From: Catellatospora sp. TT07R-123 | Lineage (GTDB): Bacteria; Actinomycetota; Actinomycetes; Mycobacteriales; Micromonosporaceae | Direction: 5' to 3' | Length of the DNA: 64,000 nucleotides | Assembly: GCF_018327705.1 (NCBI RefSeq) | Contig: NZ_BNEM01000002.1 | Coordinates: 310,001-374,000 of the forward strand | Part shown: positions 47,956-63,532 of the stretch, in pieces | Layout: each line of letters begins with the position of its first letter | Numbering within the stretch: position 1 is the first letter of the stretch | Notes under the pieces: generated by a model | Database searches by the model: none | What the model saw: only the letters and a program-made list of their open reading frames with translations | Told to the model about the DNA's origin: nothing | Translations under genes and position numbers: made by a program

Positions 47956-49125
47956 TCACCTCAGATCTTCCTTCTGATACATACGTCGCAGGTCGTCCCG
48001 CAAGTCGCGCACCCTTGCCCGGTCCAGGCCGCCCGGCAGCGGCCCGGGCGACCTGTGCTCGCAGACGAACATCGCCGAGGTGACGATGTGCAGTTCCGCC
48101 GCTGACAGGGCGAGCACGTTCCAGGCGCCGTACCGCCCGGGGCGGTGTCCCTCGCGCAGTCTGGCCGCCAGGACGTCGGCCGCCACAGGGTCCTTGAGCA
48201 CTCGGTACAGGGGTTCGTCGTCATCGACGCCGAGAGCGTGTTCGATCATGAGCGCCCACAGTTCGAACCCGCCGGGGTCGCCCTGGACCCGCAGCCGCTG
48301 CGGTTGCAGCAGCATCGCCGTCCGCCGGGCCGCCAGCGGCAGGTTGATCGTCACCACGCCGAGGAGGTCCTTGGCGGTCTGCCAGGTCCATCCTTTCGAC
48401 AGGGTCACCGCCGTCGCGCCGTCGGCGGCGGCGCGGTGGACGTCGGCCCCCGCCAGCCGCAGGACGGCGACGACCTGCTGCTCGTCGCGTTCCACGGCGT
48501 ACATGAGTGCGGTGCGGCCGTGCCGGTCGGCGGCGTCGGCGTCCGCGCCGGCCTGAAGCAGCACATCGACCGCGGCCGCGTCGCCGCGGCGGGCGGCCAT
48601 GACCAGCGCGGGTGTTCCGTCGGAGCGGTGCTCGTCGGGTGACGCCCCGTGCCGCAGCAGCTCCCTCAGCACTACGGGCGGGGCCCCCTCCTGCACGGCC
48701 GTCACCAGCAGCGGTTCCTCACCCGGCGCGAGGGGCGCGGAGTGGGCCAGCAGCGTGCTCAACGTCGCCAGGTGCGCGCCTGATCCCGTGATGCAGGAAG
48801 CGAGCGCGATACGCGGCAGACTCGGTGGGCTGTCCTGCGGCTCGGCGGCCAGCCCACCTCGCCGGATCAGCAACTCCACCGTCCCGGCGGCCCCGTCGCA
48901 GACCGCGTACATGAGCGCGCTGGAGCTCAGCTCCGGCACGATGCCCCGCAGGCGCGACCCGACCGGCACCCCGGCGTCCAGCAGCATCTCGACCACCTGA
49001 ACATGGTCGCGACCTGCGGCCTCGACCAGCGCCCGCTCCAGCACGGAGGCGTCGCCCTCGCGAACCGCCCGCGACACCCACTGTTCCGTCAGGTAGTCAT
49101 CCTGGTCGTCCGTCCCCACGATCAC
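47956..49125 (-). CDS. Ankyrin repeat protein
   Basis: This 389-residue soluble protein has ankyrin repeats over residues 20-235, such as HVQVVEMLLDAGVPVGSR, RSDGTPALVMAARRGDAAAV, DVLLQAGADADAADRHGRTA and LMYAVERDEQQVVAVLRLAG. A C-terminal helical region of about 150 residues has no recognised domain. Ankyrins mediate protein contacts; the partner is unknown. The start is uncertain: tandem GTG codons near 49125 lack a strong ribosome-binding site. Confidence 0.8.
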   Translation of the reverse strand: MIVGTDDQDDYLTEQWVSRAVREGDASVLERALVEAAGRDHVQVVEMLLDAGVPVGSRLRGIVPELSSSALMYAVCDGAAGTVELLIRRGGLAAEPQDSPPSLPRIALASCITGSGAHLATLSTLLAHSAPLAPGEEPLLVTAVQEGAPPVVLRELLRHGASPDEHRSDGTPALVMAARRGDAAAVDVLLQAGADADAADRHGRTALMYAVERDEQQVVAVLRLAGADVHRAAADGATAVTLSKGWTWQTAKDLLGVVTINLPLAARRTAMLLQPQRLRVQGDPGGFELWALMIEHALGVDDDEPLYRVLKDPVAADVLAARLREGHRPGRYGAWNVLALSAAELHIVTSAMFVCEHRSPGPLPGGLDRARVRDLRDDLRRMYQKEDLR

Positions 49126-49357
49126 GCCTGCATTCTGCTCCGAACCGCCCGGCGCACCGACCCGCGGATCTCTTCTCACCACGGATGGTCGTCGCCGCCA
49201 GGAGGAAGTCCGCCGGCCTGATCGTCCCCCGGAGTAGTGGCGGCACGTCATTACCACGGCCCGAGAGAACGAAAAGGAGTTACCCGGCAAACCAACCGCA
49301 CCAGCCTGCCTCGCGCGATGATGTCGGCAAAAGCGTCTCTGTCACTGGGGGTATGGA

Positions 49358-50182
49358 ATGGCCGACTGGGACGGCGCCGGTTACGTGCGCGTCAGCGGGT
49401 TGCAGCGGGCGATGGCGACGGCCTCCCTCGACGCCCTCACGGTCGCGGGCGACGAGCGCGTGCTCGACGTGGGCTGCGGCGACGGGTACGTCACCCGGCA
49501 GATCGCGGCCCGGGTGCCGGCGGGTTCGGTCGTCGGCGTGGACGCGTCGCCGCGCATGATCGACACGGCCCGTGCCGCCGACGACCGGGCCAAGAACGTG
49601 TCGTTCCAGGTCGGCGACGTCACCACGATGGCGTTCGGGCCCGACTTCGACCTGGTGGTCTCGTTCAACGCCCTGCACTGGGTGCCCGACCAGCAGGCCG
49701 CCTTCCGCAACATCGCGGCGGCGCTCGACCCGTACGGCCGGGTGCTCGTGCAGTTCGTCTGCCACGGTCCCCGCCCGAGCGTCGAGCGCGTCACGATGGA
49801 GGTGTGCCGCGATCCGCGCTGGGCGCCCGCCTTCGCGGGCTTCGCGCCGCCCTACGTGCACATCGATCCCGATGACCTGGCCGGGATCGCGGGCAGCGCG
49901 GGCCTGGACGTCACGGGGCAGTCGGTCGCGGACCGCGAATGGGACTTCGGCTCACGCGAGCAGTTCGCCCAGTGGTGCGCGGTCGGGTTCACGGACTGGA
50001 CGTCGCGGCTGCCGGCGGCGGACGGTCCCGTGTTCATCGACGCCGTCGTCGACCGGTACCAGGCGGTCGTCGGCAGGCCGGGACTGTTCCGGTTCCTGCA
50101 ACTGCGGGCCGAGCTCCGGCCGAGCCCGGCGGCCGCGAGATCTGCGGCCGCGGACTCGGGCGCGAGGCGGGGCAGGTTCTGA
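49358..50182 (+). CDS. SAM-dependent methyltransferase (trans-aconitate methyltransferase-like)
   Basis: This 274-residue class I methyltransferase has motif I RVLDVGCGDGYVTRQIA, the acidic residue in VVGVDASPRMID, motif II FDLVVSFNALHWVPDQQ and motif III ALDPYGRVLVQFV. The NALHWV signature is typical of trans-aconitate methyltransferase-like enzymes, though the substrate need not be aconitate. It ends 2 bases from the end of the SDR gene on the other strand, so it converges on the GntR-linked cluster and is not part of it. Confidence 0.88.
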   Translation: MADWDGAGYVRVSGLQRAMATASLDALTVAGDERVLDVGCGDGYVTRQIAARVPAGSVVGVDASPRMIDTARAADDRAKNVSFQVGDVTTMAFGPDFDLVVSFNALHWVPDQQAAFRNIAAALDPYGRVLVQFVCHGPRPSVERVTMEVCRDPRWAPAFAGFAPPYVHIDPDDLAGIAGSAGLDVTGQSVADREWDFGSREQFAQWCAVGFTDWTSRLPAADGPVFIDAVVDRYQAVVGRPGLFRFLQLRAELRPSPAAARSAAADSGARRGRF

Positions 50183-50183
50183 A

Positions 50184-50933
50184 CTACCGGCCGCTCATGA
50201 GGTCGTTGAACCGGGTCACCACGCCTACCTCGTCGGGCCGCTGCGCGTCGCGGCGTTGCCGGGCCCGTTCGACGAGCACCTCGACCTCGTCGGTCTCCAG
50301 CACCCGGAGGGTCTCGGCGAGGTAGTCGGCCAGGGGCATGGCGCGGGGGTCGGTGAGGTTGACCTCCATCAGCCCGGTCTGCGTGTACGGCGGCGCGATC
50401 TCCAGGACCCGCACCGAGCTGCCGCGCAGCCGGTAGCGCAGCGACAGCGTGTACGAGTGCAGTGCGGCCTTGGTCGCGGAGTAGACCGACGACGACGCCA
50501 GCGGCGCGTAGCCGAGCATCGAGGTGACCATGACGACGGTCGCCGAAGGCTGCCGGCGCAGGTGGTCGATGAGCGCCGACACCAGGCGGATCGGGCCGAG
50601 CAGGTTGGTGGCGACGGTGGCGGTGAGCAGGTCGTCGTCGACAGGCCGGCCGGGGTCGTCGCCGTGCATGACACCGGCGTTGCTGATGACGACGTTGAGC
50701 GCGGGGTGTTCGGCGAGCACCTGCGGGATCGCGCGGGCGATGCCGGCGGCGTCCGCGACGTCCATGCACACGGTGCTCATACCGGGGCAGCCTGCGGCGA
50801 CCTCGTCGAGCGGCGCGGCCCGGCGGCCGGCGATGATGACGTGGTTGCCGCGGCGGTGCAGCTCTTCGGCCAGGCCGCGGCCGATGCCGGAGCCGCCGCC
50901 GGTGATCAGGATCGTGTTGCCGGTCAGGTCCAT
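50184..50933 (-). CDS. Short-chain dehydrogenase/reductase (DltE-like)
   Basis: This 249-residue classical SDR has [18 protein letters not shown] (TGxxxGIG), [11 protein letters not shown], catalytic Ser in [12 protein letters not shown] and [11 protein letters not shown] (YxxxK). The [12 protein letters not shown] region matches the DltE-type group. It oxidises or reduces an alcohol/carbonyl using NAD(P)(H). It is the last gene of the five-gene operon that starts at 54024; its ATG lies within the end of the NmrA-like gene (10-base overlap). Confidence 0.9.
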
Positions 50934-51811
50934 GGGCTGTCTCCCCTGGTGTACGCCGCGTACTGGTCGCGTACGTATTCCTCGAACGTGGTGGGCGGCC
51001 GCCGCAGCAGCCAGGTCAGCACATTGGCGTTGCCGACGAAGTCGTGGCTGCTGTAGCGGGCGGTGATCGCGCGCAGCACCCGGACCTGGTGGGTGACCTG
51101 CCGCGGGTCGGTGTCGCCGACCCATGCCCGGAGGTAGGTGTCGGCGTCGATCTCGCGGACCTCGACGGGCCGGCCGAGGACCCGGGTGATGATCTCGCCG
51201 AGCTCGTACGCGGTGTAGCGGCCCGGCCCGACCAGCTCGTAGGTGGCTCCGGCGTGCCTTTCGCCGTCGGTCAGCACGGTGAATGCCACGTCGGTGACGT
51301 CGCCCAGGTCCACCAGCGACTGGCGGCGCTCCAGCGACCAGGACAGCTCGAAGACGCCCCGTTCGAAGACCGGGCGGAGTTTGAGCGGCAGCATGTAGTT
51401 GGCGGGTTGGAGGATGGTGAACTCCAGCCCGGCGGAGAGCAGGTGCTCCTCGACGTCCCGTTTGATCTCGTGCTGGACGAGGTCGGTGGTGATCGCGTGC
51501 AGCACCGAGCTGAACACGAAGTGCCGTACGCCTTCGGCGCGTGCCGCGTCCACGACGGCGAACCCCATGTCGCGTTCGCGCGGGTGGAGGGTGGGGCCGA
51601 CGTGGTAGATCCGCTCGACGCCCCGGACGGCCCGGGTCAGGGTCGCCGGCTCGGTGAGGTCGCCGACGACCACGTCCGTGGCGCCGAGGGCGCGCAGCCG
51701 CGCGGCGGAGGCTTCGGTCTGGACGCAGGCGCGGACCGGCAGGCCCGCGGCGAGCAGTTTCGGCACGAGCAGGCGGCCCTGGTTGCCGTGGGCGGCGGTG
51801 ACGAGGATCAA
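50924..51811 (-). CDS. NmrA-like NAD(P)-binding protein
   Basis: This 295-residue Rossmann protein of the NmrA/TMR group starts [20 protein letters not shown] (GxxGxxG variant). It has [36 protein letters not shown] and [10 protein letters not shown]. Members act as NAD(P)H-dependent reductases or redox sensors. The start is a TTG at 51811 because GGAAGG lies 6 bases upstream and the Rossmann strand begins at once. It starts 11 bases after the amidohydrolase stop, the same operon. Confidence 0.85.
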
Positions 51812-51822
51812 CGGTGGCCTTC

Positions 51823-52944
51823 CTACTTGACCCGGTCGCCGGCGATCCATACGCCGCGGACGGCTCGGGTGGCGGCGATGTCGCTGGTCGGGTCGCCGTC
51901 GACGAGGACGACGTCGGCTCGGCTGCCGGGGGTGGTCACGCCCCGGTCGCTGAGGCCGAAGGTGTCGGCGGCCAGCGATGTCGCGCCGCGCAGCGCCTCG
52001 ACGGGGGTCAGCCCGGCGGCGACCAGGCGGGCGAGTTCGTCGTGCAGCGACTGCCCGTACGGGGGCTGGAACGGGGAGCCGTGGCCGCCGTTGGCGTCGG
52101 TGCCGACCAGCACGGTCTTGCCGGCCTGCCGGAATGCCGCCACGACCGATTCGGCGTGCCGGTATCTCATCCGCAGTCCTGGCACGACCAGGGACAGCAG
52201 CCGCATGTGCAGCCGGCCGCCGATGGCGTGTACGACGCCGTCCATCATCGCCAGGGTCGGGATGATGGTGACGGGCCGCTCGGCGAGCAGTTGCCTGAAG
52301 GCGCTGTCCAGGGTGCCGGCCACCGGTGTGTGGGTGAGGACGTCGACGCCGGCGGTGAGCGCGGTGCGCATGGTGTCGATGCTGACCACGTGGGCCACGG
52401 TCCGCAGGTCGGCCGCGTGCGCGGCGGTGACCAGGGCCGCGATGGTGTCGGCGCGCAGCGGTCTGGCGCCGGGGATCTGCGGGTCCTCGACGATGATCTT
52501 CAGGTAGTCGGACCGCTCGGCGACCCGGTCGGCGACGAAGCGGGCCGCGTCGTCGGGCCCGGTGACGCCGGTCGACGGCGGGAAGCCCATCTTCGTGATG
52601 AACATCGAGCCGGGTCCGCTGGCCACCCGGCCCGCGGATCTGAGCGCGGGCAGGCCGGGGCGGTCCTTGAGGTCCATGGTCGCGTCGAGGTTCGGCGCGC
52701 CCATGTCCAGCACGGTCGTCACGCCCCAGTCGGCCATCGCGCGCAGCTGGGCTGCCTCGTCGACGTGCGCGTGCGTGTCGATGAAGCCGGGCAGCAGCGT
52801 CCCGCCGCCGCCGTCGACGAGGTCGGCTCCGGCCGGGACCGGGCCGGTGCTGATCAGTCCGTCCTGCAGGAGCACGGTGGCGGGGGCGCCGAGCCGTGTT
52901 CCGTCGAAGACCCGGACGTTGCTGATGGCTGTGGCGGATGACAT
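51823..52944 (-). CDS. Amidohydrolase family metal-dependent hydrolase
   Basis: This is a 373-residue TIM-barrel amidohydrolase. Metal ligands appear in [15 protein letters not shown] (HxH), the bridging-Lys candidate in [10 protein letters not shown], His in TVAHVVS and VLTHTPVAG, and the catalytic Asp in [12 protein letters not shown]. The C-terminal [18 protein letters not shown] closes the small beta domain. It resembles imidazolonepropionase or prolidase-like cyclic amidases; the substrate may be an amide, lactam or lactone of the pathway. It is third gene in the operon led by the SnoaL-like gene. Confidence 0.88.
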
Positions 52945-52981
52945 GTCCGGGCGCTCGTTTCGTGCGGCGGTCGGCGGGGGT

Positions 52982-53425
52982 TCACGCGGGGTGGGGGGCG
53001 GCGTGGACGCGGCGGTGGAAGGCCGCGCGCAGGTCAGGCACGAGCGCGGCCGCGGCGGCCGGGTCGGCGTGGTCGCGGCGCAGGTTGAGGATGTTGCCGG
53101 CCCGCAGCTCGGCGGGCACCTGCTCGCCGCGCGGGGCGATGAGCACGTGGAAGTGCGGGTAGGCCTCACCGAAGACCATGAGGTATGTCGCCGGGGCGCC
53201 GGTGACCTCGGTGACCGCCGCGACGACGTCCTGGGCCCGCTGGGCGAACGTGGCGAGCTCGGCGTGGTCGAGGCCGGTGATGCGCTCGGCGTGGCGGCGC
53301 ACCCGCAGGATGAGCCATCCCGGGACGTCGTATCCGGCGACGACCTCGGCGGCCCACAGGTCGTCGCGGAACACCACCGAACTGTCGTCGGCGTTCTCCT
53401 GCGTACACATCAGACAGTCGGCCAT
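52982..53425 (-). CDS. HIT-like protein with altered histidine triad
   Basis: This 147-residue HIT-fold protein starts MADCLMCTQENADDSSVVFR with a CxxC. It has WLILRVRRHAERITGLD and the triad region YPHFHVLIAPRG. The canonical HxHxHxx reads HFHVLIA, keeping the first two His (including the nucleophile position) but replacing the third by Leu. Family members hydrolyse or transfer nucleotide phosphates. It is second gene in the operon, 113 bases after the SnoaL-like stop and 37 bases before the amidohydrolase. Confidence 0.8.
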   Translation of the reverse strand: MADCLMCTQENADDSSVVFRDDLWAAEVVAGYDVPGWLILRVRRHAERITGLDHAELATFAQRAQDVVAAVTEVTGAPATYLMVFGEAYPHFHVLIAPRGEQVPAELRAGNILNLRRDHADPAAAAALVPDLRAAFHRRVHAAPHPA

Positions 53426-53538
53426 GGAGGCTCCTTCGTTGCTGGTGTCGTGCTCGGCGTCGGGGCGCTGCCGGTGTCCGGGCAGCGCCCCGGCGCCGTC
53501 GGTCGGGCGCGTCACCGCGGCTGGCGGCGGCGCGGGGG

Positions 53539-54024
53539 TCAGTGGAAGACTTCGACGGTGGCGTCGGCCGGGATGTCGTCGTTGACCCGGTCGCGGTCGT
53601 TGATGTCGCGCCAGATCTCGTAGCCGTGCTCGCGGCAGATCTTGCCGTCGCGCATCTTGAACGCGTGCAGCAGGCGGATGCTGACGGTGGTGCCGACCGG
53701 GAACGGGGCGTTGCGGAAGCCGTCGCCGGTGATGGTCCACTCGAAGATGCTGTCGTCGAACACCCACTCCTCGGTCGCGAACCGGTGCAGGTTGGTGATC
53801 TTGTGGATGTTCATCGAGCTGAAGATCTTCAGGTACTCCCGCTTGACCTCTTCCACGTCCCGCAGCACCAGGCCGCGGGCCGGGACCTCCCACACGATGT
53901 CGTCGGTGTAGACGGAGATGGCCTTGTCGATGCTCTCGACGTTCTCGTTGTGGAAGTGCACGTCGACCGCGGCGAGGTTGGCGGCGATGATCTCGTCGCG
54001 GGTGAGGTCGGCTTGAGACGTCAT
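53539..54024 (-). CDS. SnoaL/NTF2-like protein
   Basis: This 161-residue alpha+beta cone-fold protein starts NLAAVDVHFHNENVESIDKA and has YTDDIVWEVPARGLVLRDVE, TNLHRFATEEWVFDDSIFEW and LLHAFKMRDGKICREHGYEIW. This is the pattern of SnoaL-like isomerase/cyclase or hydratase proteins. The ligand is unknown. It leads the five-gene operon; the GntR-type motif lies 155 bases upstream at 54179-54198. Confidence 0.85.
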   Translation of the reverse strand: MTSQADLTRDEIIAANLAAVDVHFHNENVESIDKAISVYTDDIVWEVPARGLVLRDVEEVKREYLKIFSSMNIHKITNLHRFATEEWVFDDSIFEWTITGDGFRNAPFPVGTTVSIRLLHAFKMRDGKICREHGYEIWRDINDRDRVNDDIPADATVEVFH

Positions 54025-54178
54025 GTGGGTCTCCTAGGGGACGGTGTGTGCTGAAGGTGATGGCGCCGGCTGCGCGCGGCGGCCGCCCGATATTCCCTGC
54101 TTACCGCACTTTGCGCCCGGGGACGGCGGAGGCGTCACCGGAACCGGCGGGTCGTCGCTTGTTTCTCCGAGATTACTT

Positions 54179-54198
54179 GCGATATGTGATAACAGCAA
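54179..54198 (-). promoter_or_regulatory. Shared GntR-type motif, site 1
   Basis: GCGATATGTGATAACAGCAA on the plus strand is identical at 19 of 20 positions to the site at 60800. It lies in the 208-base gap between the SnoaL-like operon and the AceE-like gene. The TGT-N4-ACA dyad within the complementary strand (TGTTATCACA) is a GntR-like half-site pair. Confidence 0.7.
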
Positions 54199-54232
54199 TA
54201 GGCGCACGGCCGGGACGGCCCTGAAAAGACCT

Positions 54233-56548
54233 TCAGCGGACGTCGAGAGCTGCGCTGACGATGCTGTCGGCGTCGATCCGGTGGTACCGGTAGACCTCCG
54301 CCAGGTCACCGGACTGGCCGAAGCGGGTCACGCCCAGGTGGCTCGCCCGGACCCGGTGGATGCCGGCCAGGAACGCCAGGGCGTGCGGATGTCCGTCCAG
54401 GACGGTGACCAGCGGCGCGGCCCGGTCGGCGGGGAAGGCGGCGTCGAGGATCCAGCTCGGGCCGTCGCCGTGCCCAGACCGCGCCTGCGCCGCCTCGAAC
54501 AGCAGGCCGGGGCTGGTCACACAGACGATGTCGGCCGCGACTCCCACCGCGGCCAGGCGTCCGGCCGCCGCGAGCGCCTCGGGCATCAACGCGCCCATCG
54601 CCGCGATCGTGATATCAGGCCTGCCGTCCGCCCGGCGCCACAGGTAGCCGCCTGCGACGACCTGCCGCCGGCGCCGCTCCCGGACCGCCGCGTCGGCCGG
54701 CACCTCCGCCAGCGCCTGGTCGACCGGCCGCGACGACAGCCGCAGGTAGGCGCTGCCGCCGTCCGGCCGGCCGAGCCGGGCCAGGCAGGCCAGCAGCGTC
54801 CATTCCAGATCGATCGCGAACGCCGGCTCATAGCTGACGCAGCCGGGCTGCTCCAGCCCGATGGACGGCGTCTTGATGGACTGGTGGGCGCCGCCTTCGG
54901 CCGCGAGCGTCACCCCGGCCGGGGTGCCGACCAGGATCGACTGGCCCCCGGCGTAGATCCCGAACGACCACGGTTCCAGGGCCCGCTCCACGAACGGGTC
55001 GTAGAGCACCCCGACGGGCAGCAGCGGCTCGCCCCACCGGCTCCAGGTGGCCCCGAGCTCGCCCAGCAGGCCGACGAGGTTGCCCTCGGCGATACCGAGC
55101 TCGATGTGCTGCCCGGTGGGCCGCTCCCGCCAGTGCAGGATCGTCTCCGGGTCGTCGGCGAACCAGTCGTGCCGGTGGTCGGCCGACCAGACCCCGACCT
55201 TGTTGATCCAGCCGCCCAGGTTCGTCGAGGACGCCACGTCCGGTGAGACCGTGACGATCCGGGACGCCGCCCGCGGGGCCTGTCGGGTGAGGTCCAGCAG
55301 GGTGCGACCCAGCGCCGCCTGCGTGCTGCCGGTGCCCGTCGGCGTACGGCCGAGGTCGGTCGGGACCGGCGCGGGTGACGCGGCCGGCGCCGGGTCGCGG
55401 TGCAGCCGGGCGGCCACCTCGTCGCACAGCCGGCCCGCCGGGGAGGCCGGGTCGAACCGCCGCCACGGCGCCCCGACCGACATGCCGACCCGCTCGGCCA
55501 GCGCGTCGAGCTGCGCAAGCGTCAGCATCGAGGAGTGGTTCTGCGGGTGGCCCTCGGTCGACAGCCCGTACCCCTTGATGGTGTACGCGAAGATCACCGT
55601 CGGACGGGTGTCGTCGATCGCGTCGAACACCTCACCGAGCGCGCGCAGATCGTGGCCGCCCAGGTTGCGGATCGCGGCGGTGAGCACGGCGTCGTCGAGC
55701 GTCGCCAGCAGGCCGTGCAGCGCCTGCCCGTCCGGCCCGCCGCCGGGCAGCCGGTCCCGCAGCTGCGCCGCGGTGCACCGCAGCAGGCGCTGGTACTCGG
55801 GGTTGGGCATCTCGTCCAGGCGGCGCCGCAGGGCCTCGCCACCGGGCCGCTCGAACAATCCGGCCAGCACCGTGCCGTACTTGGCCGTCAGCACCTGCCA
55901 GCCGGCCGCGGCGAACATGGTCTGCAGCCGGGTCGCCGCGAGGTGCGGCACCACCCGGTCCAGGGACTGGCGGTTGAGGTCGACGATCCAGCAGACCTCG
56001 CCCAGGCCGGCCACCATCGGGTCGAGGATCGCCTCCCAGACCGCGCCCTCGTCGAGCTCGGCGTCACCGACCAGCGAGTACTGCCTGCCCGCGCCCGCCG
56101 CCGCCCCGGCCGCGTTGACGTATCTGCGGGCCAGCGCGCCCCAGATCGGCGCGGTCGCCCCGATGCCGACCGACCCGGTCGAGTAGTCGACGGGGTCGGG
56201 GTCCTTGGACCGGCTGGGGTAGCTCTGCAGGCCGCCGAAGGAGCGCAGCGTGGTCAGATACTCCTCCCCCAGGTCGCCGAGCAGGTAGTTGATCGCGTGC
56301 AGCACCGGGGAGGCATGCGGTTTGACCGACACCCGGTCGGCCGCGGTCAGGCGGTCGAACCACAGCGCGGTCATGATCGTCGTCATCGAGGCGCTGGACG
56401 CCTGGTGGCCGCCGACCTTCAGCCCGCTCGGATTCGGCCGGACCCGGTTGGCATGGTCGATCATCGCGGTGGACAGCCACAGCACTCGCTGCTCGACCTC
56501 GGACAGCACCCTGTGCCGAAGTTGCTCGCCGGTTGTGCTCACCGTCAT
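54233..56548 (-). CDS. AceE/transketolase-like thiamine-diphosphate enzyme
   Basis: This 771-residue protein is related to homodimeric pyruvate dehydrogenase E1 (AceE) and transketolase. The N-terminal TPP domain has HANRVRPNPSGLKVGGHQAS and DYSTGSVGIGATAPIWGALA. The cofactor motif is GDAELDEG followed 26 residues later by VDLNRQSLD. The pyrimidine-binding domain follows (IELGIAEGNLVGLLGELGA, with the activating Glu) and a C-terminal transketolase domain. It is about 120 residues shorter than AceE, and no E2 or E3 gene is nearby, so it probably catalyses a carboligation or decarboxylation of its own. ATG 56548 has AAGGGGG upstream. Confidence 0.85.
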   Translation of the reverse strand: MTVSTTGEQLRHRVLSEVEQRVLWLSTAMIDHANRVRPNPSGLKVGGHQASSASMTTIMTALWFDRLTAADRVSVKPHASPVLHAINYLLGDLGEEYLTTLRSFGGLQSYPSRSKDPDPVDYSTGSVGIGATAPIWGALARRYVNAAGAAAGAGRQYSLVGDAELDEGAVWEAILDPMVAGLGEVCWIVDLNRQSLDRVVPHLAATRLQTMFAAAGWQVLTAKYGTVLAGLFERPGGEALRRRLDEMPNPEYQRLLRCTAAQLRDRLPGGGPDGQALHGLLATLDDAVLTAAIRNLGGHDLRALGEVFDAIDDTRPTVIFAYTIKGYGLSTEGHPQNHSSMLTLAQLDALAERVGMSVGAPWRRFDPASPAGRLCDEVAARLHRDPAPAASPAPVPTDLGRTPTGTGSTQAALGRTLLDLTRQAPRAASRIVTVSPDVASSTNLGGWINKVGVWSADHRHDWFADDPETILHWRERPTGQHIELGIAEGNLVGLLGELGATWSRWGEPLLPVGVLYDPFVERALEPWSFGIYAGGQSILVGTPAGVTLAAEGGAHQSIKTPSIGLEQPGCVSYEPAFAIDLEWTLLACLARLGRPDGGSAYLRLSSRPVDQALAEVPADAAVRERRRRQVVAGGYLWRRADGRPDITIAAMGALMPEALAAAGRLAAVGVAADIVCVTSPGLLFEAAQARSGHGDGPSWILDAAFPADRAAPLVTVLDGHPHALAFLAGIHRVRASHLGVTRFGQSGDLAEVYRYHRIDADSIVSAALDVR

Positions 56549-56565
56549 CGCGTACCCCCTTCGAG

Positions 56566-56585
56566 GAATTGTTATCATATATAGC
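56566..56585. promoter_or_regulatory. Shared GntR-type motif, site 2
   Basis: TTGTTATCATATATAGC (56569-56585) aligns with the complement of the other two sites at 15 of 20 positions, in inverted orientation. It lies 18 bases before the AceE-like ATG and 100 bases before the GntR start, so it could serve both divergent promoters. Confidence 0.6.
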
Positions 56586-56685
56586 GCACCGTTCGAGAGT
56601 GCGGCCGTGGACCCTCAGCCTGGTTGAGGCTGATCGCCGTTATAGTTGATGTCGTTGACGTGGACAGCTGAGAGCGAGGCTGCAA

Positions 56686-57396
56686 GTGGGATCAGCGGCC
56701 GTGCGCCCGATCGAGTCCCGGTCCGTAGCCGACCAGGTGATGACGGAGCTGCGCCGCTCCATCCTGTCGGGGGCGCTGGCGCCGGGCCAGGAGTTCTCCC
56801 TGCGCGAGCTCGCCGAGATGCTGCAGGTCAGCATCATCCCCATCCGGGAGGCGCTGCGCAGCCTGGAAAGCCAGGGGCTGGTGCACATGCGGCCGGGCCG
56901 CAGCGCCGCCGTGGCCCCGCTCGACCTCGACGAGTTGCAGAGCATCTACCGGCTGCGCCGCCGGCTCGAACCCGAGATCGCCCAGCGCTCCTGCCGACTG
57001 CTGTCGGACGCCGAGCTCGACCGGTTGCAGCGCGAAGCCTCTGAGTTCGGCGACGAGCGGCGCACCATGAACGAGATCTACGAAGCGCACCACGCGTGGC
57101 ACCTGGCCCTGCTGGCTCCCGCCGCAACGAGCTGGGACCTGCGGATCCTGCTGACACTGGGGCGGGCCGCCGAACGCTACATCCGGATCGGGTTCGGCAG
57201 CCTGGATCCCGATCCGCACGAGCACGACCGGCGCGAGCAGGCGCATGTCGACCTGGTCGCGGCGTTCCGCCAGCGCGACCCGGAGATCGCGGCCAGCGCG
57301 ATGCACCAGCACCTCGCGCACAACGAGCAGATCGCGCTGCTGGCCCTGCGCAAGGATCACCGCGCTGCCCCGCCGCGCACGGACGCGGGCAGCTGA
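56686..57396 (+). CDS. GntR family regulator (FadR subfamily)
   Basis: This 236-residue regulator has an N-terminal winged HTH (SRSVADQVMTELRRSILSGALAPGQEFSLRELAEMLQVSIIPIREALRSLESQGLV-type) and a C-terminal FCD ligand domain. Its helical metal-binding residues are seen in RRLEPEIAQ, EAHHAWHLALL and MHQHLAHNEQ. FadR-type GntR proteins sense carboxylic acids or CoA esters and usually repress catabolic operons. GTG 56686 has GCGAGG upstream. It is divergent from the AceE-like gene and ends 2 bases from the monooxygenase gene end. It is the obvious controller of the cluster. Confidence 0.9.
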   Translation: MGSAAVRPIESRSVADQVMTELRRSILSGALAPGQEFSLRELAEMLQVSIIPIREALRSLESQGLVHMRPGRSAAVAPLDLDELQSIYRLRRRLEPEIAQRSCRLLSDAELDRLQREASEFGDERRTMNEIYEAHHAWHLALLAPAATSWDLRILLTLGRAAERYIRIGFGSLDPDPHEHDRREQAHVDLVAAFRQRDPEIAASAMHQHLAHNEQIALLALRKDHRAAPPRTDAGS

Positions 57397-57398
57397 CG

Positions 57399-58976
57399 TC
57401 AGCCCGCATGCGCGGCAGGGCCGTCGGCGGCCCCGCGTACCCGGTCGATCAGGTCGGCGGGCGCCGGCGGGTGGTCGCCGGACCATGCGACGTACTGGTC
57501 CGGGCGTACGAGCACCAGGTCGGCCCCGTAGCGCGACCGCAGGTCACGGCCGCTGAGGTCGAGGCGTCGCAGGGGCACCCCCCGGTCCTCGGCCGCCCGC
57601 GCGACCAGGTCCGCCCGGCCCGCGGCCGCCTCGGTCAGGACCAGCAGCGTGAACCCCGGCCCCAGCTCGTCGAACAGTGACCGACCACCGAGCCACAGGT
57701 GTGCCAGCCGACCGCCGACGGCGGCGTCCCCGCCGGCGACCACCGGCGAGTCCTCGATCCGGATGTCCAGCACCAGCTCCAGCGAGTGGAACTCCGCCCG
57801 CTTGGTCGCCTGGATCCGGTCGTCCGCCGCGGCCCTGGCCCGCCGGCCGGCCTCGTCGTCGGCGTCGAGGTTGTCGGCCAGCAGCTCGGTCGAGGTGACG
57901 GCCATGTTCGCAGTCGCCTCCCGGATCACCCGCTCCTGGATCGGCCGCCGCTCCTTCTCGTAGCTGTCCAGCAGCGCCGGGCCGCCCCAGCCGTCGAGCA
58001 CCGCGGCCAGCTTCCAGCCCAGGTCGACCGCGTCGCCGAGCCCGGTGTTGAGCCCGTGCCCGCCGAACGGCGGGTTGAGATGGGCGGCGTCACCGGCCAG
58101 GAACACCCGGCCGAGCCACATCCGGTCGACGATCTGCATCCGCGCCGTCCATGGGTCGGTCGACAGCACGGTCGCGTCGACCTCCGCACCGACCGCGGCG
58201 GCGATGAGCTGCCGCGCGTCGCGCTCGCCGGTCTCCCGGCCCACGCCGAACGCGATCATCCACCAGGTGCCGTCCCGGTCGATCGGGCCCATCAGCGCAG
58301 GCGCCTGCCCGTTGACGATCCAGTAGTGCACCGCGGCACCGTGGCGGACCCGGGCCCACAGGTCGGGGGCGGTGAACACCATCCCGAAGTTGGGCCGCAG
58401 CGCGTGCTCACCGTCGTAGACGGCGCCGATCCGCTCCCGCACGGTGCTGCGCGGACCGTCCGCGCCGATCAGGTACTCGGCCGTCACCGTCGTCTCCAGG
58501 CCGGCCTCGTCGCGGACGGTCACCCGGACCTCGTCGTCGGTCTGGGCCACGTCCGTGACGCTGCGGCCGGTGACGAGCGTGCAGGACGCGAGCCCGCACA
58601 CCACGTCGCGCAGCAGCTCCTCCAGCACGTACTGCGGTGCCTGCTGGCCGAGTTCCGGGAAGCGGTCGCCCTCGGCCGCCAGCCCCAGCACCCCGGTGAA
58701 GCGCGACAGCTCCCGCCCGACCAGCGAGGTGCAGAACACGACGTCCTGCGTCCAGTCGGTCGACAGCGGCGCCCGGCTGCGCAGCTCGTCGGCGATGCCC
58801 CACCGGCGCAGGTGCTCCATCGACCGCACGCTGACCGTCTTGCACCGGGGGCGGGCGTGCGACACCGTCCGGCGCGGCTCGACGACCAGCACCCGGATGC
58901 CACGCCGGCCGAGTTCGACGGCGGCGGCGAGCCCGACCGGCCCGCCGCCGGCCACGATGACCTGTGTATCCGGCAT
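57399..58976 (-). CDS. FAD-dependent aromatic monooxygenase (PheA/TfdB type)
   Basis: This 525-residue flavoprotein monooxygenase would hydroxylate an aromatic ring using NAD(P)H and O2. FAD motifs are VIVAGGGPVGLAAAVELGRRG (GxGxxG), LIGADGPRSTVRERIG (DG motif) and VFLAGDAAHLNPPFGGHGLNTGLGDAV (GD motif). The C-terminal thioredoxin-like domain of phenol-hydroxylase relatives follows (LLVLTEAAAGRADLVARAAED). The start ATG is 4 bases after the hydrolase stop. It is third in the FAH-hydrolase-monooxygenase operon. Confidence 0.92.
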   Translation of the reverse strand: MPDTQVIVAGGGPVGLAAAVELGRRGIRVLVVEPRRTVSHARPRCKTVSVRSMEHLRRWGIADELRSRAPLSTDWTQDVVFCTSLVGRELSRFTGVLGLAAEGDRFPELGQQAPQYVLEELLRDVVCGLASCTLVTGRSVTDVAQTDDEVRVTVRDEAGLETTVTAEYLIGADGPRSTVRERIGAVYDGEHALRPNFGMVFTAPDLWARVRHGAAVHYWIVNGQAPALMGPIDRDGTWWMIAFGVGRETGERDARQLIAAAVGAEVDATVLSTDPWTARMQIVDRMWLGRVFLAGDAAHLNPPFGGHGLNTGLGDAVDLGWKLAAVLDGWGGPALLDSYEKERRPIQERVIREATANMAVTSTELLADNLDADDEAGRRARAAADDRIQATKRAEFHSLELVLDIRIEDSPVVAGGDAAVGGRLAHLWLGGRSLFDELGPGFTLLVLTEAAAGRADLVARAAEDRGVPLRRLDLSGRDLRSRYGADLVLVRPDQYVAWSGDHPPAPADLIDRVRGAADGPAAHAG

Positions 58977-58980
58977 CAGG

Positions 58981-59859
58981 CTAGTGTCCCCGGGTCTGCC
59001 AGAACACGCACTCCTCGGCGAACGCCAGCTGCCGCAGGTGCAGCGCGTGCCCGAGGGTGTGGTGGTCGATGCTGTGCCCGACGCCGCGGGCGATGCTCGC
59101 GTCGACGAAGGGGGCGGCGGTGAGCAGTTCGGCGAACCTCGCGACGTTGTCGGGGGTGCTGTCCCACAGCGCGTCGTGTTCGGCGAGCGCGTTGTGGACC
59201 GGCACGTCGATCCGGGGAGCGAGGCCGGGCAGGATGTCGTCGGCCCACTGCGGGGCGGCGATGAGCTCCCGCACCGGCACCGGGGCGTACGCCCCGTGGG
59301 CCTGCTCGACGCCGTCGGCGCTGAACGTGCCCGCCGGGCCGAACATCACCAGGTCCCGCTGGTCGTAGGGCAGGTCGATGGTCGCGTCGGCTGGCAGCGA
59401 GGCCAGCGCCTCGGCGGCGCCGCCACGGCGGATGACCGCGCCCATGCCGGTGACCGAGGCGCCGATCAGCCGGAAGTCGTTGTGCCGTCCGGCGATCATG
59501 AGGGCGATCATCCCGCCGATCGAGTGCCCCACCAGCAGGACCGGCCGGTCGCCGGCCGCCTGGCCGATCGCCTCGTTGAGCAGCCGGGCGTGCCGTTCGA
59601 AGGTGTTGGCCTGCGGTTCGAGGGCGGTGCTGCCGCCGTAGCCGGGACGGTCGAAGCTCACCACCTGGTATCCGGCGGCCGCGGCCAGGTCCATGAACGA
59701 GCCCTGGCCGGAGCCGGCCACGTCGAAGTATCTGGCCGAGTAGGTGCCACCGTGCAGGGCCGCGATGAGCGGCTTGCCGGCAGCTGACCGGCCCTTGGTC
59801 AGGGCCGTGATCGTCAGGCCGTCCACGGTGAATCGAATGTCGTCGGGTGCTTGCGCCAT
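58981..59859 (-). CDS. Alpha/beta hydrolase (ring-cleavage hydrolase-like)
   Basis: This 292-residue serine hydrolase has an oxyanion region LIAALHGGTYSARYFD, nucleophile elbow VLLVGHSIGGMIALMIAG (GHSIGG), acid residue in NALAEHDALWDS and His in RGVGHSIDHHTLG. In aromatic pathways such enzymes cleave C-C bonds of ring-opening products or ester bonds. It lies 28 bases after the FAH-like gene and 4 bases before the monooxygenase, so it is a core member of the operon. Confidence 0.88.
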   Translation of the reverse strand: MAQAPDDIRFTVDGLTITALTKGRSAAGKPLIAALHGGTYSARYFDVAGSGQGSFMDLAAAAGYQVVSFDRPGYGGSTALEPQANTFERHARLLNEAIGQAAGDRPVLLVGHSIGGMIALMIAGRHNDFRLIGASVTGMGAVIRRGGAAEALASLPADATIDLPYDQRDLVMFGPAGTFSADGVEQAHGAYAPVPVRELIAAPQWADDILPGLAPRIDVPVHNALAEHDALWDSTPDNVARFAELLTAAPFVDASIARGVGHSIDHHTLGHALHLRQLAFAEECVFWQTRGH

Positions 59860-59887
59860 CGGGGCCTCCTCGTGGGATTTCAGGGAT

Positions 59888-60739
59888 CTATCGCTGCGGT
59901 GCCACGAACCGGTGCCGCATCCGGCCGATCGTCTCGACCCAGGTGACCAGCTCGTCGCCTGCTTGCAGCAGCTCCTTCGGCTGGCGGGCCCAGCCGATGC
60001 CGCTCGGGGTGCCGGTGAAGATCAGGTCACCGGGCAGCAGCGGCAGGACGGCGGACAGGTACTCCACCAGCTGCGGGATGGAGAAGATCATGTCGGCGGT
60101 ACGGGCCTTCTGCATCTGCCTGCCGTTGACCTGGCAGCCCAGTTCGAGGTCGCCCGGATCGGCGAACTCGTCCAGCGTCACCAGCGCCGGGCCGATCGGG
60201 GCGAAGCCGCGGTAGGACTTGCCCAGGTTGAACTGCTGCGGGGCCGACCCGGCGAACTGCAGCTCCCGCTCGGACAGGTCCTGGCCGGCCGTGAAACCCG
60301 CGATGTGGTCCCAGGCGTCGGCGGCCGCGACGTGCTCCGCGCGCCGGCCGATCACCGCGACCAGTTCGGCCTCGAAGTCCACCGAGCCGGCAGGCCGTTC
60401 GATGTCGCCGTTGGGGCCGGTGACCGAGGCCGGGAACTTCGTGAACACCACCGGGCGGTCGGGCAGCGCCAGCCCCGCCTCGGCGGCGTGATCACGGTAG
60501 TTGAGGCCGATCGCGAACACCTGCGCCGGCCTCGGCACGGGCGCCTCCAGCCGCGCAGGGTCGACGGCCAGCGTGGCCGGCCCCGCGAAGCCGCGGGCCC
60601 AGCCGGCGAACTCGTCCCACCGCTCGTAGACGGCCTGCGGGCTGCTGGTGAACCGGCCTTCGCTGGCGGTCTCGACGTCGACCGCGCCGTCGGCGCCGAC
60701 GCCGAGCGCCAGTCGGCCGGCCAGGTTGTAAACGCGCAC
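59888..60739 (-). CDS. Fumarylacetoacetate hydrolase family protein
   Basis: This 283-residue FAH-fold enzyme has an N-terminal arm, then VFAIGLNYRDHAAEAGLALPD, VVFTKFPASVTGP, VDFEAELVAVIG (metal-binding Glu) and FTAGQDLSERELQ. The end is IFSIPQLVEYLSAVLPLLPGDLIFTGTPSGIG. Such enzymes cleave or hydrate beta-diketo and hydroxydienoate acids at the end of aromatic degradation. It is the first gene of the three-gene operon, with the GntR-type motif 61 bases upstream. Confidence 0.92.
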   Translation of the reverse strand: MRVYNLAGRLALGVGADGAVDVETASEGRFTSSPQAVYERWDEFAGWARGFAGPATLAVDPARLEAPVPRPAQVFAIGLNYRDHAAEAGLALPDRPVVFTKFPASVTGPNGDIERPAGSVDFEAELVAVIGRRAEHVAAADAWDHIAGFTAGQDLSERELQFAGSAPQQFNLGKSYRGFAPIGPALVTLDEFADPGDLELGCQVNGRQMQKARTADMIFSIPQLVEYLSAVLPLLPGDLIFTGTPSGIGWARQPKELLQAGDELVTWVETIGRMRHRFVAPQR

Positions 60740-60799
60740 GCGCTCCTCCAGTGCTCTGAGCAGTGCTGTTCTGGCGAGCCCTGCGCGCTCACGCTATCC

Positions 60800-60819
60800 G
60801 CTATATGTGATAACAGCAA
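60800..60819 (-). promoter_or_regulatory. Shared GntR-type motif, site 3
   Basis: GCTATATGTGATAACAGCAA differs from site 1 by one base. It lies 61 bases before the FAH-like ATG and 160 bases before the divergent P450 ATG. The rest of the 239-base gap holds no other clear signal. Confidence 0.7.
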
Positions 60820-60978
60820 CCCTCGGCGGCAACATGCCCACAACACAGCCGACTTCAGGACGCCGAGCGAGCGGTTCGGGTCGCCGTCCGCGGGACCGCG
60901 CCGCAGTCCTACGGAGTTCATCGACGAGTAACTCAGAGCAGTTGAACAACCGCGCAGCGCCATGCGAAGCTTCGCCGC

Positions 60979-62181
60979 ATGCCGGACACTCCACTGCCGA
61001 CCGTGCGGTTCCCGTTCGTACAGCCCGACGGCGACGCGCTGCTGCCCGCCCCGGTGCCGTGCCTGGACCGGATAGGGCAGGTCACCCTGCCCACCGGTCG
61101 GCAGGCGTGGCTGGTCACGCGGCACGACGACGTACGCCAGCTGCTGCGCAGCCCGGACTTCTCCAGCGACTTCAGCCGGCCGGGATTCCCGCTGCTGCGG
61201 GAGGCGCCGCTGATGGACAAGAGCCGCCAGGCCGGCTTCTTCATCGGGATGGACGCCCCCGACCACACGGTGTTCCGCCGCATGCTGACACCCGAGTTCA
61301 TGATCAAGGCGATGCGGCGGCTGGAGCCCCTGATCCAGCAGACGATCGTCGAGGCGATCGAGTCGATGCGGGCCGCCGGGCCGCCGGCCGATCTCGTCGA
61401 GCGGTTCGCGCTGCCCGTGCCCTCGATGATCATCTGCCACCTGCTGGGCGTCCCCTACACCGACCACGCGTTCTTCCAGCAGCTCAGCCAGACCATGCTC
61501 GACCGGCAGGCCGCCCTCGCGCAGATCCGGGCCGCGGGCGACGAGCTGCGCGCCTACCTGACCGACCTCGTCGCGGCCAAGCTGCGCCAGGGCGGCTCGG
61601 ACGACCTCGTCGGGCGGCTCGCGACCGAGCGGGTCGCCACCGGTGAGATCACCGCCGAGGACCTCGTCGGCCTGTCCATGCTGCTGCTCGTCGCCGGGCA
61701 CGAGACCACCGCCAACATGATCAGCCTCGGCACGCTGGTGCTGCTGCGCCACCCCGACCAGTTCGCGCGGCTGCGCGAACGGCCCGAACTGATCGAAGGC
61801 GGCGTCGAGGAGCTGCTGCGATACCTCACCATCATCCGGACCGGCCTCGGCCGGGTCGCCACGGCCGACACCGAGCTCGGCGGCCACCGGATCCGGGCCG
61901 GTGACGGCGTGATCGCACTGCTGTCGGCCGCCAACCGCGACCCGGCGGCGTTCGAGCGGCCCGACGAGTTCGACCTGTACCGTGCCGCCCACTCGCACCT
62001 GGCCTTCGGCTTCGGCGTCCACCAGTGCATCGGGCAGCCGCTGGCCCGCATCGAGCTGCGTATCGCCTTCGCCGAGCTCACCGCCCGGCTGCCCGGACTC
62101 GCCCTGGCCGCCGACCCGGCCGAGCTCCAGTTCCGCAGCTCCACCGTCTTCGGCGTCGAGCGGATGCCGGTGAGCTGGTGA
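60979..62181 (+). CDS. Cytochrome P450
   Basis: This 400-residue soluble bacterial P450 has helix-I oxygen-binding motif LLLVAGHETTANM, the ExxR region, and heme loop FGFGVHQCIGQPLAR with Cys350 as heme ligand. An NRDPAAF loop precedes it. All features of an active CYP105/CYP107-like monooxygenase are present. No ferredoxin gene is adjacent. It is divergent from the FAH operon across the third motif, so it may belong to the same response. A glycosyltransferase follows on the same strand. Confidence 0.93.
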   Translation: MPDTPLPTVRFPFVQPDGDALLPAPVPCLDRIGQVTLPTGRQAWLVTRHDDVRQLLRSPDFSSDFSRPGFPLLREAPLMDKSRQAGFFIGMDAPDHTVFRRMLTPEFMIKAMRRLEPLIQQTIVEAIESMRAAGPPADLVERFALPVPSMIICHLLGVPYTDHAFFQQLSQTMLDRQAALAQIRAAGDELRAYLTDLVAAKLRQGGSDDLVGRLATERVATGEITAEDLVGLSMLLLVAGHETTANMISLGTLVLLRHPDQFARLRERPELIEGGVEELLRYLTIIRTGLGRVATADTELGGHRIRAGDGVIALLSAANRDPAAFERPDEFDLYRAAHSHLAFGFGVHQCIGQPLARIELRIAFAELTARLPGLALAADPAELQFRSSTVFGVERMPVSW

Positions 62182-62254
62182 GCCGAGACCCGGGCTGATC
62201 TTCCCGGTGACCCGCGGCGCCTCCGGTCCGGCCGGGCGCCACTACTGTGTCGGC

Positions 62255-63532
62255 ATGGCTCGGATTGTGGTGGCGTCGATGCCGTTCGCCGGTCACGTGG
62301 GCGCGATGACCGCGGTCGCCGGTGAGCTGGCGGGTCGCGGTCACGAGGTGCTGGCCTACACCGGCGCGAAGTACGCGCAGCGGTTCGCCGCGGTGGGCGC
62401 GCGGTGGCTGCCGTGGCAGCAGGCCACCGACTTCGACGACAGCGATCTCGCGGCCACGTTCCCTCCGGTCGGCGACGGCAAAGGCCTGCGCGGCGGTATG
62501 GCCAACGTCGAGCACGTGCTCCTGGGCACCGGGGCCGGGCAGGCCGCCGACCTGCTCGCCGAGGCCTCGCGCGAACCGGTCGACCTGTTCGTGACCGATC
62601 ACCTGGCATTCGGCGTCGCGCTGGCCGGGGAGACCCTCGGGCTGCCGTGGGCCTCGGTGGCGGTGACGCCGCTGCCGCTGGAGAGCCGGGAACTGCCTCC
62701 GCCCGGGTTCCCGGCCCTGCCCGCCAGGGGTCCGCTCGGGCGGGTCCGCGACCGGGCCCTGCGCTCGGTGCTGCACGCGGTGGCCGCCCGGGTCGTCGAC
62801 CCGATGCTGAACCGGATGCGGGCCGCCGCCGGACTGCCCGCATCCACGGGCGGGATGGACAGCCTGCTCTCGCCGCATCTGGTGCTGGCGCAGGGCGTGC
62901 CCGGACTGGACTATCCGCGCGGCGATCTGCCGCCGCACGTCCACTTCGTCGGCCGGCTCGCCGTCGCGGCCTCCCCGCAGGAACTCCCGGCGTGGTGGCC
63001 CGAGGTCGTCGCGGCGCGCGCCGACGGCATACCGGTGGTGCACGTGACCCAGGGGACGCTCGACGTCGACTTCACCGACCTGCTGAAACCGGCGATCGCC
63101 GGGCTCGCCGGCGAGCGGGTGCTCGTGGTGTGCACGACCGGCGGCGCTCCGGTCGACGCGCTCGGGCCGGTGCCGGACAACGTCCGCGCGGCCCGGTTCC
63201 TGCCGCATGACCAGCTGCTGCCGCTCACCGACGTGATGGTCACCAACGGCGGCTGGAACGGGGTGCTGGCCGCGGTGCAGGCGGGTGTGCCGCTCGTGGT
63301 CGCGGGCGCGTCGCTGGACAAGCCCGAGGTCGCCCGGCGGGTCGCCTGGTCCGGGGTCGGCCGGAACCTGCACACGGGCAGGCCGGGAGCCGCCCGGGTC
63401 CGCCGCGCGGTGCGGCACCTGCTGGAGCGGCCCGAGCACGCCCGGCGCAGCAGGGAGCTGGGGGCGAAGCTGGCCGCGGCCGGTGGCGCGAGCACGGCGG
63501 GCGACCTGCTGGAAGAGCTGATCGCCGCCTGA
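62255..63532 (+). CDS. GT1-type (UGT) glycosyltransferase
   Basis: This 425-residue GT-B fold enzyme has an acceptor domain beginning MARIVVASMPFAGHVGAMTAVAGELAGRGHEV (His in FAGHV). The donor domain has VHVTQGTLD, RAARFLPHDQLLPLTDVMVTNGGWNGVLAAVQAGVPLVV. In the PSPG-like motif the usual HHGG reads TNGGWN and the end reads LDKPEVARRV, as in macrolide-type antibiotic glycosyltransferases. It transfers a sugar to a small molecule; with the P450 it suggests tailoring or detoxification. It starts 74 bases after the P450 stop. Confidence 0.88.
   Translation: MARIVVASMPFAGHVGAMTAVAGELAGRGHEVLAYTGAKYAQRFAAVGARWLPWQQATDFDDSDLAATFPPVGDGKGLRGGMANVEHVLLGTGAGQAADLLAEASREPVDLFVTDHLAFGVALAGETLGLPWASVAVTPLPLESRELPPPGFPALPARGPLGRVRDRALRSVLHAVAARVVDPMLNRMRAAAGLPASTGGMDSLLSPHLVLAQGVPGLDYPRGDLPPHVHFVGRLAVAASPQELPAWWPEVVAARADGIPVVHVTQGTLDVDFTDLLKPAIAGLAGERVLVVCTTGGAPVDALGPVPDNVRAARFLPHDQLLPLTDVMVTNGGWNGVLAAVQAGVPLVVAGASLDKPEVARRVAWSGVGRNLHTGRPGAARVRRAVRHLLERPEHARRSRELGAKLAAAGGASTAGDLLEELIAA

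Follow-up and report, generated by a model that had tools for sequence, protein, structure and literature searches.

The closest described gene set that we found to the locus considered here is the kpi cluster of Arthrobacter sp. IN13, which serves the catabolism of 4-hydroxypyridine and in which KpiC, a protein of the amidohydrolase_1 family, opens the ring of 3,4-dihydroxypyridine (PMC7356986). Our locus lies in Catellatospora sp. TT07R-123, within a stretch of 64,000 nucleotides (the window) that spans positions 310001-374000 of the 4.48-Mb contig C2. It comprises three operons around one GntR-type regulator gene, which share a sequence motif and probably form one regulated set for the breakdown of a ring-shaped compound. 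At the level of families, rather than of compared sequences, kpi holds the same five: an FAD_binding_3 monooxygenase, an alpha/beta hydrolase, an amidohydrolase_1 protein, an FAA hydrolase and a FadR-type regulator. However, Table 1 of that paper has no thiamine enzyme (E1), HIT, SnoaL or VOC protein, and KpiA and KpiC are 374 and 475 amino acids long, whereas the monooxygenase and amidohydrolase of the window have 525 and 373. An earlier reading of the window from its letters alone (the sequence-only reading) had stated that the combination matches no pathway known to its author; that statement now carries the kpi cluster as a caveat.

Other described systems were compared as well. PdhR, whose gene we take to lie beside aceE in E. 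coli, resembles our case in that a FadR-type GntR gene adjoins an AceE-like gene; however, the window GntR scores 50.4 against the PdhR cut-off of 330, and its AceE-like gene is one among three operons that include aromatic genes. The chemistry of orcinol and orsellinate would suit those relatives of the cluster that hold a VOC protein, an FAA hydrolase and an acetoacetate-CoA ligase; the literature searched gave no gene set for comparison, and our own cluster has neither the VOC protein (VOC1 below) nor the ligase. Riboflavin and lumichrome catabolism was considered since the abstract describes a thiamin-dependent decarboxylation and the formation of pyruvate and acetoacetate, but it was rejected as a misfit, as LumK and LumL are proteins of 20 and 23 kDa and the route proceeds by a P450, a xanthine oxidase and a Rieske system (PMC12746152). 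The ipp cluster for 2-isopropylphenol begins with a two-component group D enzyme (PMC12442392). Among the open-licence papers searched, no described pathway matching the gene set was found.

All three operons of the set are read on the minus strand. The first runs from FAH (59888-60739), of the FAA_hydrolase family PF01557, through ABH (58981-59859), an alpha/beta hydrolase, to FMO (57399-58976), a FAD-binding aromatic hydroxylase of family PF01494. The second is led by a SnoaL_2-family protein (53539-54024) and continues with a HIT-like protein (52982-53425), the Amidohydro_1-family metallohydrolase AmiH (51823-52944), an NmrA-like NAD(P)-binding protein (50924-51850) and an SDR oxidoreductase (50184-51125). 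The third is E1 (54233-56548), an AceE/transketolase-like thiamine enzyme, and next to it, on the plus strand, lies the gene for the proposed repressor, GntR (56686-57396). The leader genes that the sequence-only reading had called SnoaL-like, FAH-like and AceE-like are thus a SnoaL_2 protein, an FAA_hydrolase and a transketolase/pyruvate dehydrogenase (PDH)-E1-like protein. That reading had also placed the middle copy of the motif between the AceE-like gene and a FadR-type GntR gene, which agrees with the Pfam scores of the regulator: its helix-turn-helix reaches 62.1 bits against a cut-off of 27 and its FCD domain 60.9 against 24.3, which places it in the FCD (FadR) subfamily.

The 20-mer GCTATATGTGATAACAGCAA occurs exactly at 60800-60819 and with one mismatch at 54179-54198. 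These are its sole matches in the window at up to three mismatches, and at the same threshold 100 dinucleotide-preserving shuffles of the window gave none. An inverted copy at 56566-56585, GCTATATATGATAACAATTC, matches at 15 of 20 positions, and four of its five differences fall at the last four bases, where the other two sites hold a -35-like box. When the 18-bp core TATATKTGATAACARCAA was sought with up to three mismatches over the whole genome (9.17 Mb, two contigs), the sites at 54179-54198 and 60800-60819 were again the only ones, and the reversed core pattern, used as a control, had no match. The repeat of the motif is beyond chance, and the 19/20 direct repeat and inverted 15/20 match that had been spotted by eye are both confirmed. 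The longest E1 frame, which extends to 56578, begins within the middle site; translation more probably starts at an in-frame ATG at 56548-56546, preceded by GAAGGGGG, and with that start the middle site becomes intergenic.

The motif recurs together with the regulator. Over 20 stretches searched, it was present at up to three mismatches in all twelve loci bearing this GntR, our own included (26 sites), and in none of the eight comparison stretches without it, and 200 permuted motifs gave a mean of 0.025 sites with a maximum of 1. Two intergenic sites, our own (5 mismatches) and that of the same-genus locus L110 (4 mismatches), were added to give a set of 28, from which the 4-mismatch sites of L115 were excluded. 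Eleven positions are invariant over these 28 sites, an invariance that follows in part from how the sites were chosen, and they define an operator, TGTTATnAnATAT, read toward the controlled gene. With up to one substitution, the operator core was absent from ten stretches without this GntR (L122, L123, L131, L132, L133, L134, L137, L096, L028 and L025). In a draw of 394 genomes from the class, the motif at no more than one mismatch was found in 3 of the 4 genomes that carry an orthologue of GntR and in 1 of the 390 others, an association with a Fisher p of 1.6e-6, or 1.2e-4 when our own genome, the source of the motif, is left out, although the genomes are not independent.

Read toward the controlled gene, the motif is a composite of a -35-like box, TTGCTG (or TTGTTG), the operator in the spacer and then a -10-like box, TAnnnT, the two hexamers being what we take to be elements for the housekeeping sigma factor. 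The -10-like box lay outside the pattern used for finding sites; in 19 of the 28 sites its distance from the TTGCTG position is 17 bp and in 2 it is 18 bp, and the box was found at none of the other 16 offsets tried. In site 1 (60802-60819, minus strand), the predicted promoter-operator of FAH-ABH-FMO, TTGCTG occupies 60814-60819 and TAGCGT 60791-60796, with the operator in the spacer. Site 2 (54181-54198, minus strand) has TTGCTG at 54193-54198, the operator, and TAATCT at 54170-54175, and is the predicted promoter-operator of the operon from SnoaL to SDR. Site 3 (56566-56583, minus strand), between E1 and GntR, holds the operator core without either box. It is one of six GntR-E1 intergenic sites (own, L110, L048, L032, L034 and L040) which, with one site in L112, make up the seven that lack TAnnnT. 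Since these six also lack TTGCTG and keep the operator alone, the operator can be distinguished from the promoter-like boxes. Its placement between the two boxes argues for repression, which is the mode of action that the layout predicts. The 22 sites that lie elsewhere each face a member of the set or, in the case of L113 and L114, an ABC-transporter operon whose last genes are FAH and VOC1. The proposal of one motif and one GntR gene for three operons is supported.

The gene set was then compared by tblastn over the twelve GntR-bearing loci: our own, L110, L048, L111, L112, L113, L114, L115, L032, L034, L040 and L098. E1 is found in all 12, HIT and FAH in 10 each, AmiH in 9, VOC1 in 8, and FMO and ABH together in 7; L113 and L034 end near HIT/VOC1 and E2 and L098 ends at aldehyde dehydrogenase, so that absences in these three are uncertain. 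The finding that would have told against the idea, genes not conserved together, did not appear, and 11 of the 12 loci hold at least one of FAH, VOC1, FMO, ABH and AmiH. The SnoaL and NmrA-like proteins are present in 3 loci each and the SDR has a close match in 2; the NmrA-like and SDR proteins, which the sequence-only reading had listed with the others, are better seen as peripheral. VOC1 and SnoaL never occur together, and in four loci the gene after AmiH encodes an aldehyde dehydrogenase. L110 repeats the order from FAH to SDR, after which comes an acyl-CoA-dehydrogenase-family gene. L112 has a different monooxygenase (FMO2) within the same frame and an acetoacetate-CoA ligase scoring above its family cut-off. 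The highest GntR similarity among named loci is that of Paractinoplanes pyxinae (L048; 84%).

E1 by itself tells little, and it is GntR that singles out the set. Searches for E1 relatives gave 435 candidate stretches, the best 80 of which are 71-81% identical and lie in varied settings; in 19 of these 80 an adjoining gene falls into one cluster, and the member sampled from it is of AsnC/Lrp type. A GntR match of at least 60% was present in 6 of 99 E1-bearing loci, some of which are only about 4-5 kb long. When 7 candidates were scored per genome, an orthologue of GntR (E at most 1e-60) was found in 3 of 397 genomes drawn from the order and 4 of 394 from the class, our own being in both draws, and within the genus a close E1 occurs in 2 of 11 genomes. 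The set is uncommon and scattered in its distribution, as would be expected of a mobile trait.

Similar enzymes are also combined under other regulators. Three Rhodococcus plasmid clusters (BH4, R. koreensis R85 and R. rhodochrous pNit) combine FAH (52-63%), a monooxygenase (FMO, 43%, or FMO2, 57-62%), a VOC protein and acetoacetate-CoA ligase, and pNit also has E1 (72%) and an AsnC gene; they lack the motif and gave no match to HIT at E 1e-4. In the lichen isolate Paraburkholderia sp. D15, a plasmid cluster (L132, 493-12931) contains ABH (40%), FMO (42%), FAH (43%), VOC1 (44%) and E1 (28%), with E2 and an NTF2-like gene alongside, and adjoins a LysR-type regulator. It differs in that its E1 is annotated as mdeB and in extra genes of acyl-CoA-dehydrogenase and flavin-reductase type, and AmiH, HIT and GntR found no match in it at E 1e-4. 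On the Pseudonocardia plasmid pBCI1-2, from the ant Apterostigma dentigerum (L137, 1-10059), AmiH (43%) adjoins an NTF2-like gene near FAH, acetoacetate-CoA ligase and VOC. We considered the window SnoaL as the counterpart of these NTF2-like genes; profile comparison gave no support, and the L132 protein did not align with it. AmiH also has homologues in contexts unrelated to these, one of them on a Microbacterium plasmid. Because the enzyme set reappears with other regulators, a shared pathway is more probable than a chance neighbourhood.

The enzyme families suggest aromatic catabolism. The nearest PDB chains to FMO are RebC and 2-hydroxybiphenyl 3-monooxygenase, ABH has by eye a conserved, apparent Ser-Asp-His set, and FAH is closest to a putative HpcE protein, with acylpyruvases lower in the list. 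The AmiH start was re-assigned and is probably 52944 rather than 53169, and the protein has by eye the HxH, Lys, His, His and Asp expected of a working metallohydrolase. The SDR probably starts further downstream than annotated, since its domain begins near residue 70. As for VOC1, two His and a Glu are kept, by eye, at positions that we take to be those of extradiol ligands. Ring hydroxylation and cleavage, which the sequence-only reading had proposed, is supported in kind, eight of the twelve loci having this VOC protein with extradiol-like ligands. The label 'HIT-like' proved weak: the protein falls in no Pfam family at E 1e-5 and in no curated HIT family, its only two PDB matches are GalT chains (E 3e-4 and 3.8e-4), and it keeps the HxH without the third His. 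Across six sequences C4, C7, H45, H91 and H93 do not vary, a pattern that we take to be the zinc site and nucleophile of GalT. Beyond site 1 lie a cytochrome P450 gene (60979-62181, plus strand) and an EryCIII-like/UDP-glycosyltransferase gene (62207-63532, plus strand), neither matched in L110, and an ankyrin-repeat protein is encoded at 47956-49290 on the minus strand.

E1 resembles AceE/MdeB-type enzymes over its full length and is about 30% identical to the other homologue in the genome, presumably the organism's own AceE. It falls well short of the curated families, with 189.4 bits against a cut-off of 859.9 for TIGR00759 (AceE, homodimeric PDH E1) and 170.6 against 1408.3 for TIGR03186 (MdeB-type E1). 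The description of E1 as a stand-alone thiamine enzyme does not hold in two of the twelve loci: in L112 a lipoyl E2, scoring above the TIGR02927 cut-off, directly follows it, and in L034 a partial E2 match lies beside VOC1. The E1 of L112 (10992-13509) is itself split between two reading frames that overlap (442 and 428 amino acids) ahead of the lipoyl E2 gene, perhaps through a frameshift in the record.

We consider it likely, though well short of certain, that the GntR/FCD repressor controls the three operons as one regulon for aromatic or heteroaromatic breakdown, since the motif recurs with the likely repressor gene and most of the enzymes in actinomycetes of other orders. From the layout and the enzyme families we infer the following course. 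GntR would bind the operator between the boxes of the FAH-ABH-FMO and SnoaL-HIT-AmiH-NmrA-SDR promoters, as well as in the leader between GntR and E1, and would be released when a pathway metabolite, as the effector, is bound by the FCD domain. FMO would then hydroxylate the ring of the substrate, which a ring-cleaving enzyme (VOC1 in relatives) would open; ABH and AmiH may hydrolyse ester, lactone or amide bonds, FAH may cleave an acylpyruvate-like product, and E1 could oxidise a 2-oxo acid together with an E2 that is encoded in the cluster or supplied by housekeeping metabolism, the reactions possibly falling in that order. By analogy with the ring opening attributed to the amidohydrolase-family protein of kpi (PMC7356986), the substrate may contain nitrogen, as the sequence-only reading had guessed.

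Several observations weigh against this proposal. The sites in related loci are not independent of one another, and the pattern used to find them already contained the -35-like part. A standard promoter scan of 50000-61000, which needs a closer match to TTGACA/TATAAT, gave none. Genome G703, the source of L115, has the GntR gene and yet sites only at 3-4 mismatches, while G708, a genome of 1.5 Mb, has a match with one mismatch (L130; G708:C3:36778-36795) without a GntR orthologue at threshold, although this single match is probably due to chance. Our own cluster has no evident ring-cleavage enzyme, nothing in it qualifying as an extradiol dioxygenase, and it has neither acetoacetate-CoA ligase nor E2. 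VOC1 was not found in our genome, in a search made without a positive control, and the sole two-domain VOC found there, at C1:39675, is distant and without the motif. Of 15 positions read from E. coli AceE, which we take to be active-site positions with their assigned roles, ten are kept in E1 and five differ (194, 231, 258, 407 and 522), although a two-residue gap in the alignment would bring a His to position 407. Finally, the transporter of L032 is closest to the aromatic acid/H+ symport (MFS) family but scores below its cut-off (189.8 against 418.55).

We also put forward, tentatively, a more specific picture: a catabolic regulon, not yet described and spread horizontally, in which the final product of the pathway requires an AceE-like dehydrogenase of its own, acting with a GalT-like HIT partner. 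GntR, the operator, HIT and E1 would be its minimal unit, as in L111, the ring-opening modules would be exchanged (VOC1, or SnoaL in our own type), and the SnoaL type would open or rearrange the ring without a recognisable dioxygenase. The same minimal locus bears on a different and, in our judgement, unlikely reading, that GntR is primarily a PdhR-like switch for 2-oxo acid metabolism, with GntR, the operator, HIT and E1 as the regulon proper and aromatic genes for several substrates recruited later. In L111 (8012-11741), the smallest form of the regulon, these four stand alone near gcpE, rimP, nusA and DUF2254 genes, and the exchange of the monooxygenase for FMO2 in L112 fits later recruitment. 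It is harder to reconcile with the presence of an enzyme from the FAH, VOC1, FMO, ABH and AmiH group in every locus but one, and with the 22 sites outside the GntR-E1 region, which all face such genes apart from L111, the site at 7500 in L032 (AmiH) and similar single-gene cases.

The missing dioxygenase would be explained if the amidohydrolase-family protein itself opened the ring, as in a kpi-like pathway for a hydroxypyridine or other N-heterocycle. The five shared families, FadR-type regulator included, and the opening of 3,4-dihydroxypyridine by KpiC speak for such a pathway (PMC7356986), which we nonetheless regard as rather doubtful. With its full HxH, Lys, His, His and Asp set, AmiH looks by eye like a hydrolase, six of the nine loci with AmiH also have VOC1, and the shorter KpiA and the absence of E1, HIT and VOC from Table 1, given above, point the same way.

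That the operons are instead a tailoring part of a biosynthetic gene cluster seems improbable to us. FMO resembles RebC, RdmE and other biosynthetic hydroxylases, SnoaL belongs to a family that would fit, and P450, glycosyltransferase-like and methyltransferase genes adjoin the cluster; but none of the four flanking genes used as queries was matched in L110, and the relatives add acetoacetate-CoA ligase, aldehyde dehydrogenase, E2 and VOC. It is very improbable that another regulator binds the motif and that GntR merely travels along, as the weaker sites of G703 and the solitary site of G708 might suggest, since GntR is the sole regulator among those compared to occur in all 12 loci (AsnC in 4, namely L098, L112, L113 and L114, and IclR in 2, L032 and L040) and the motif follows it in three of four genomes against one of 390 others.

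The literature searched gave no name for the substrate of the pathway. What began as a repeat spotted by eye is now a regulon that can be tested: its operator and mode of repression are predicted, and its member genes are listed across several actinomycete orders. It also links a HIT-like protein without an assigned role to the E1 of a 2-oxo acid dehydrogenase. The parts are ordinary and the whole is uncommon: a conserved regulon with a readable operator, for which a catabolic role is plausible.

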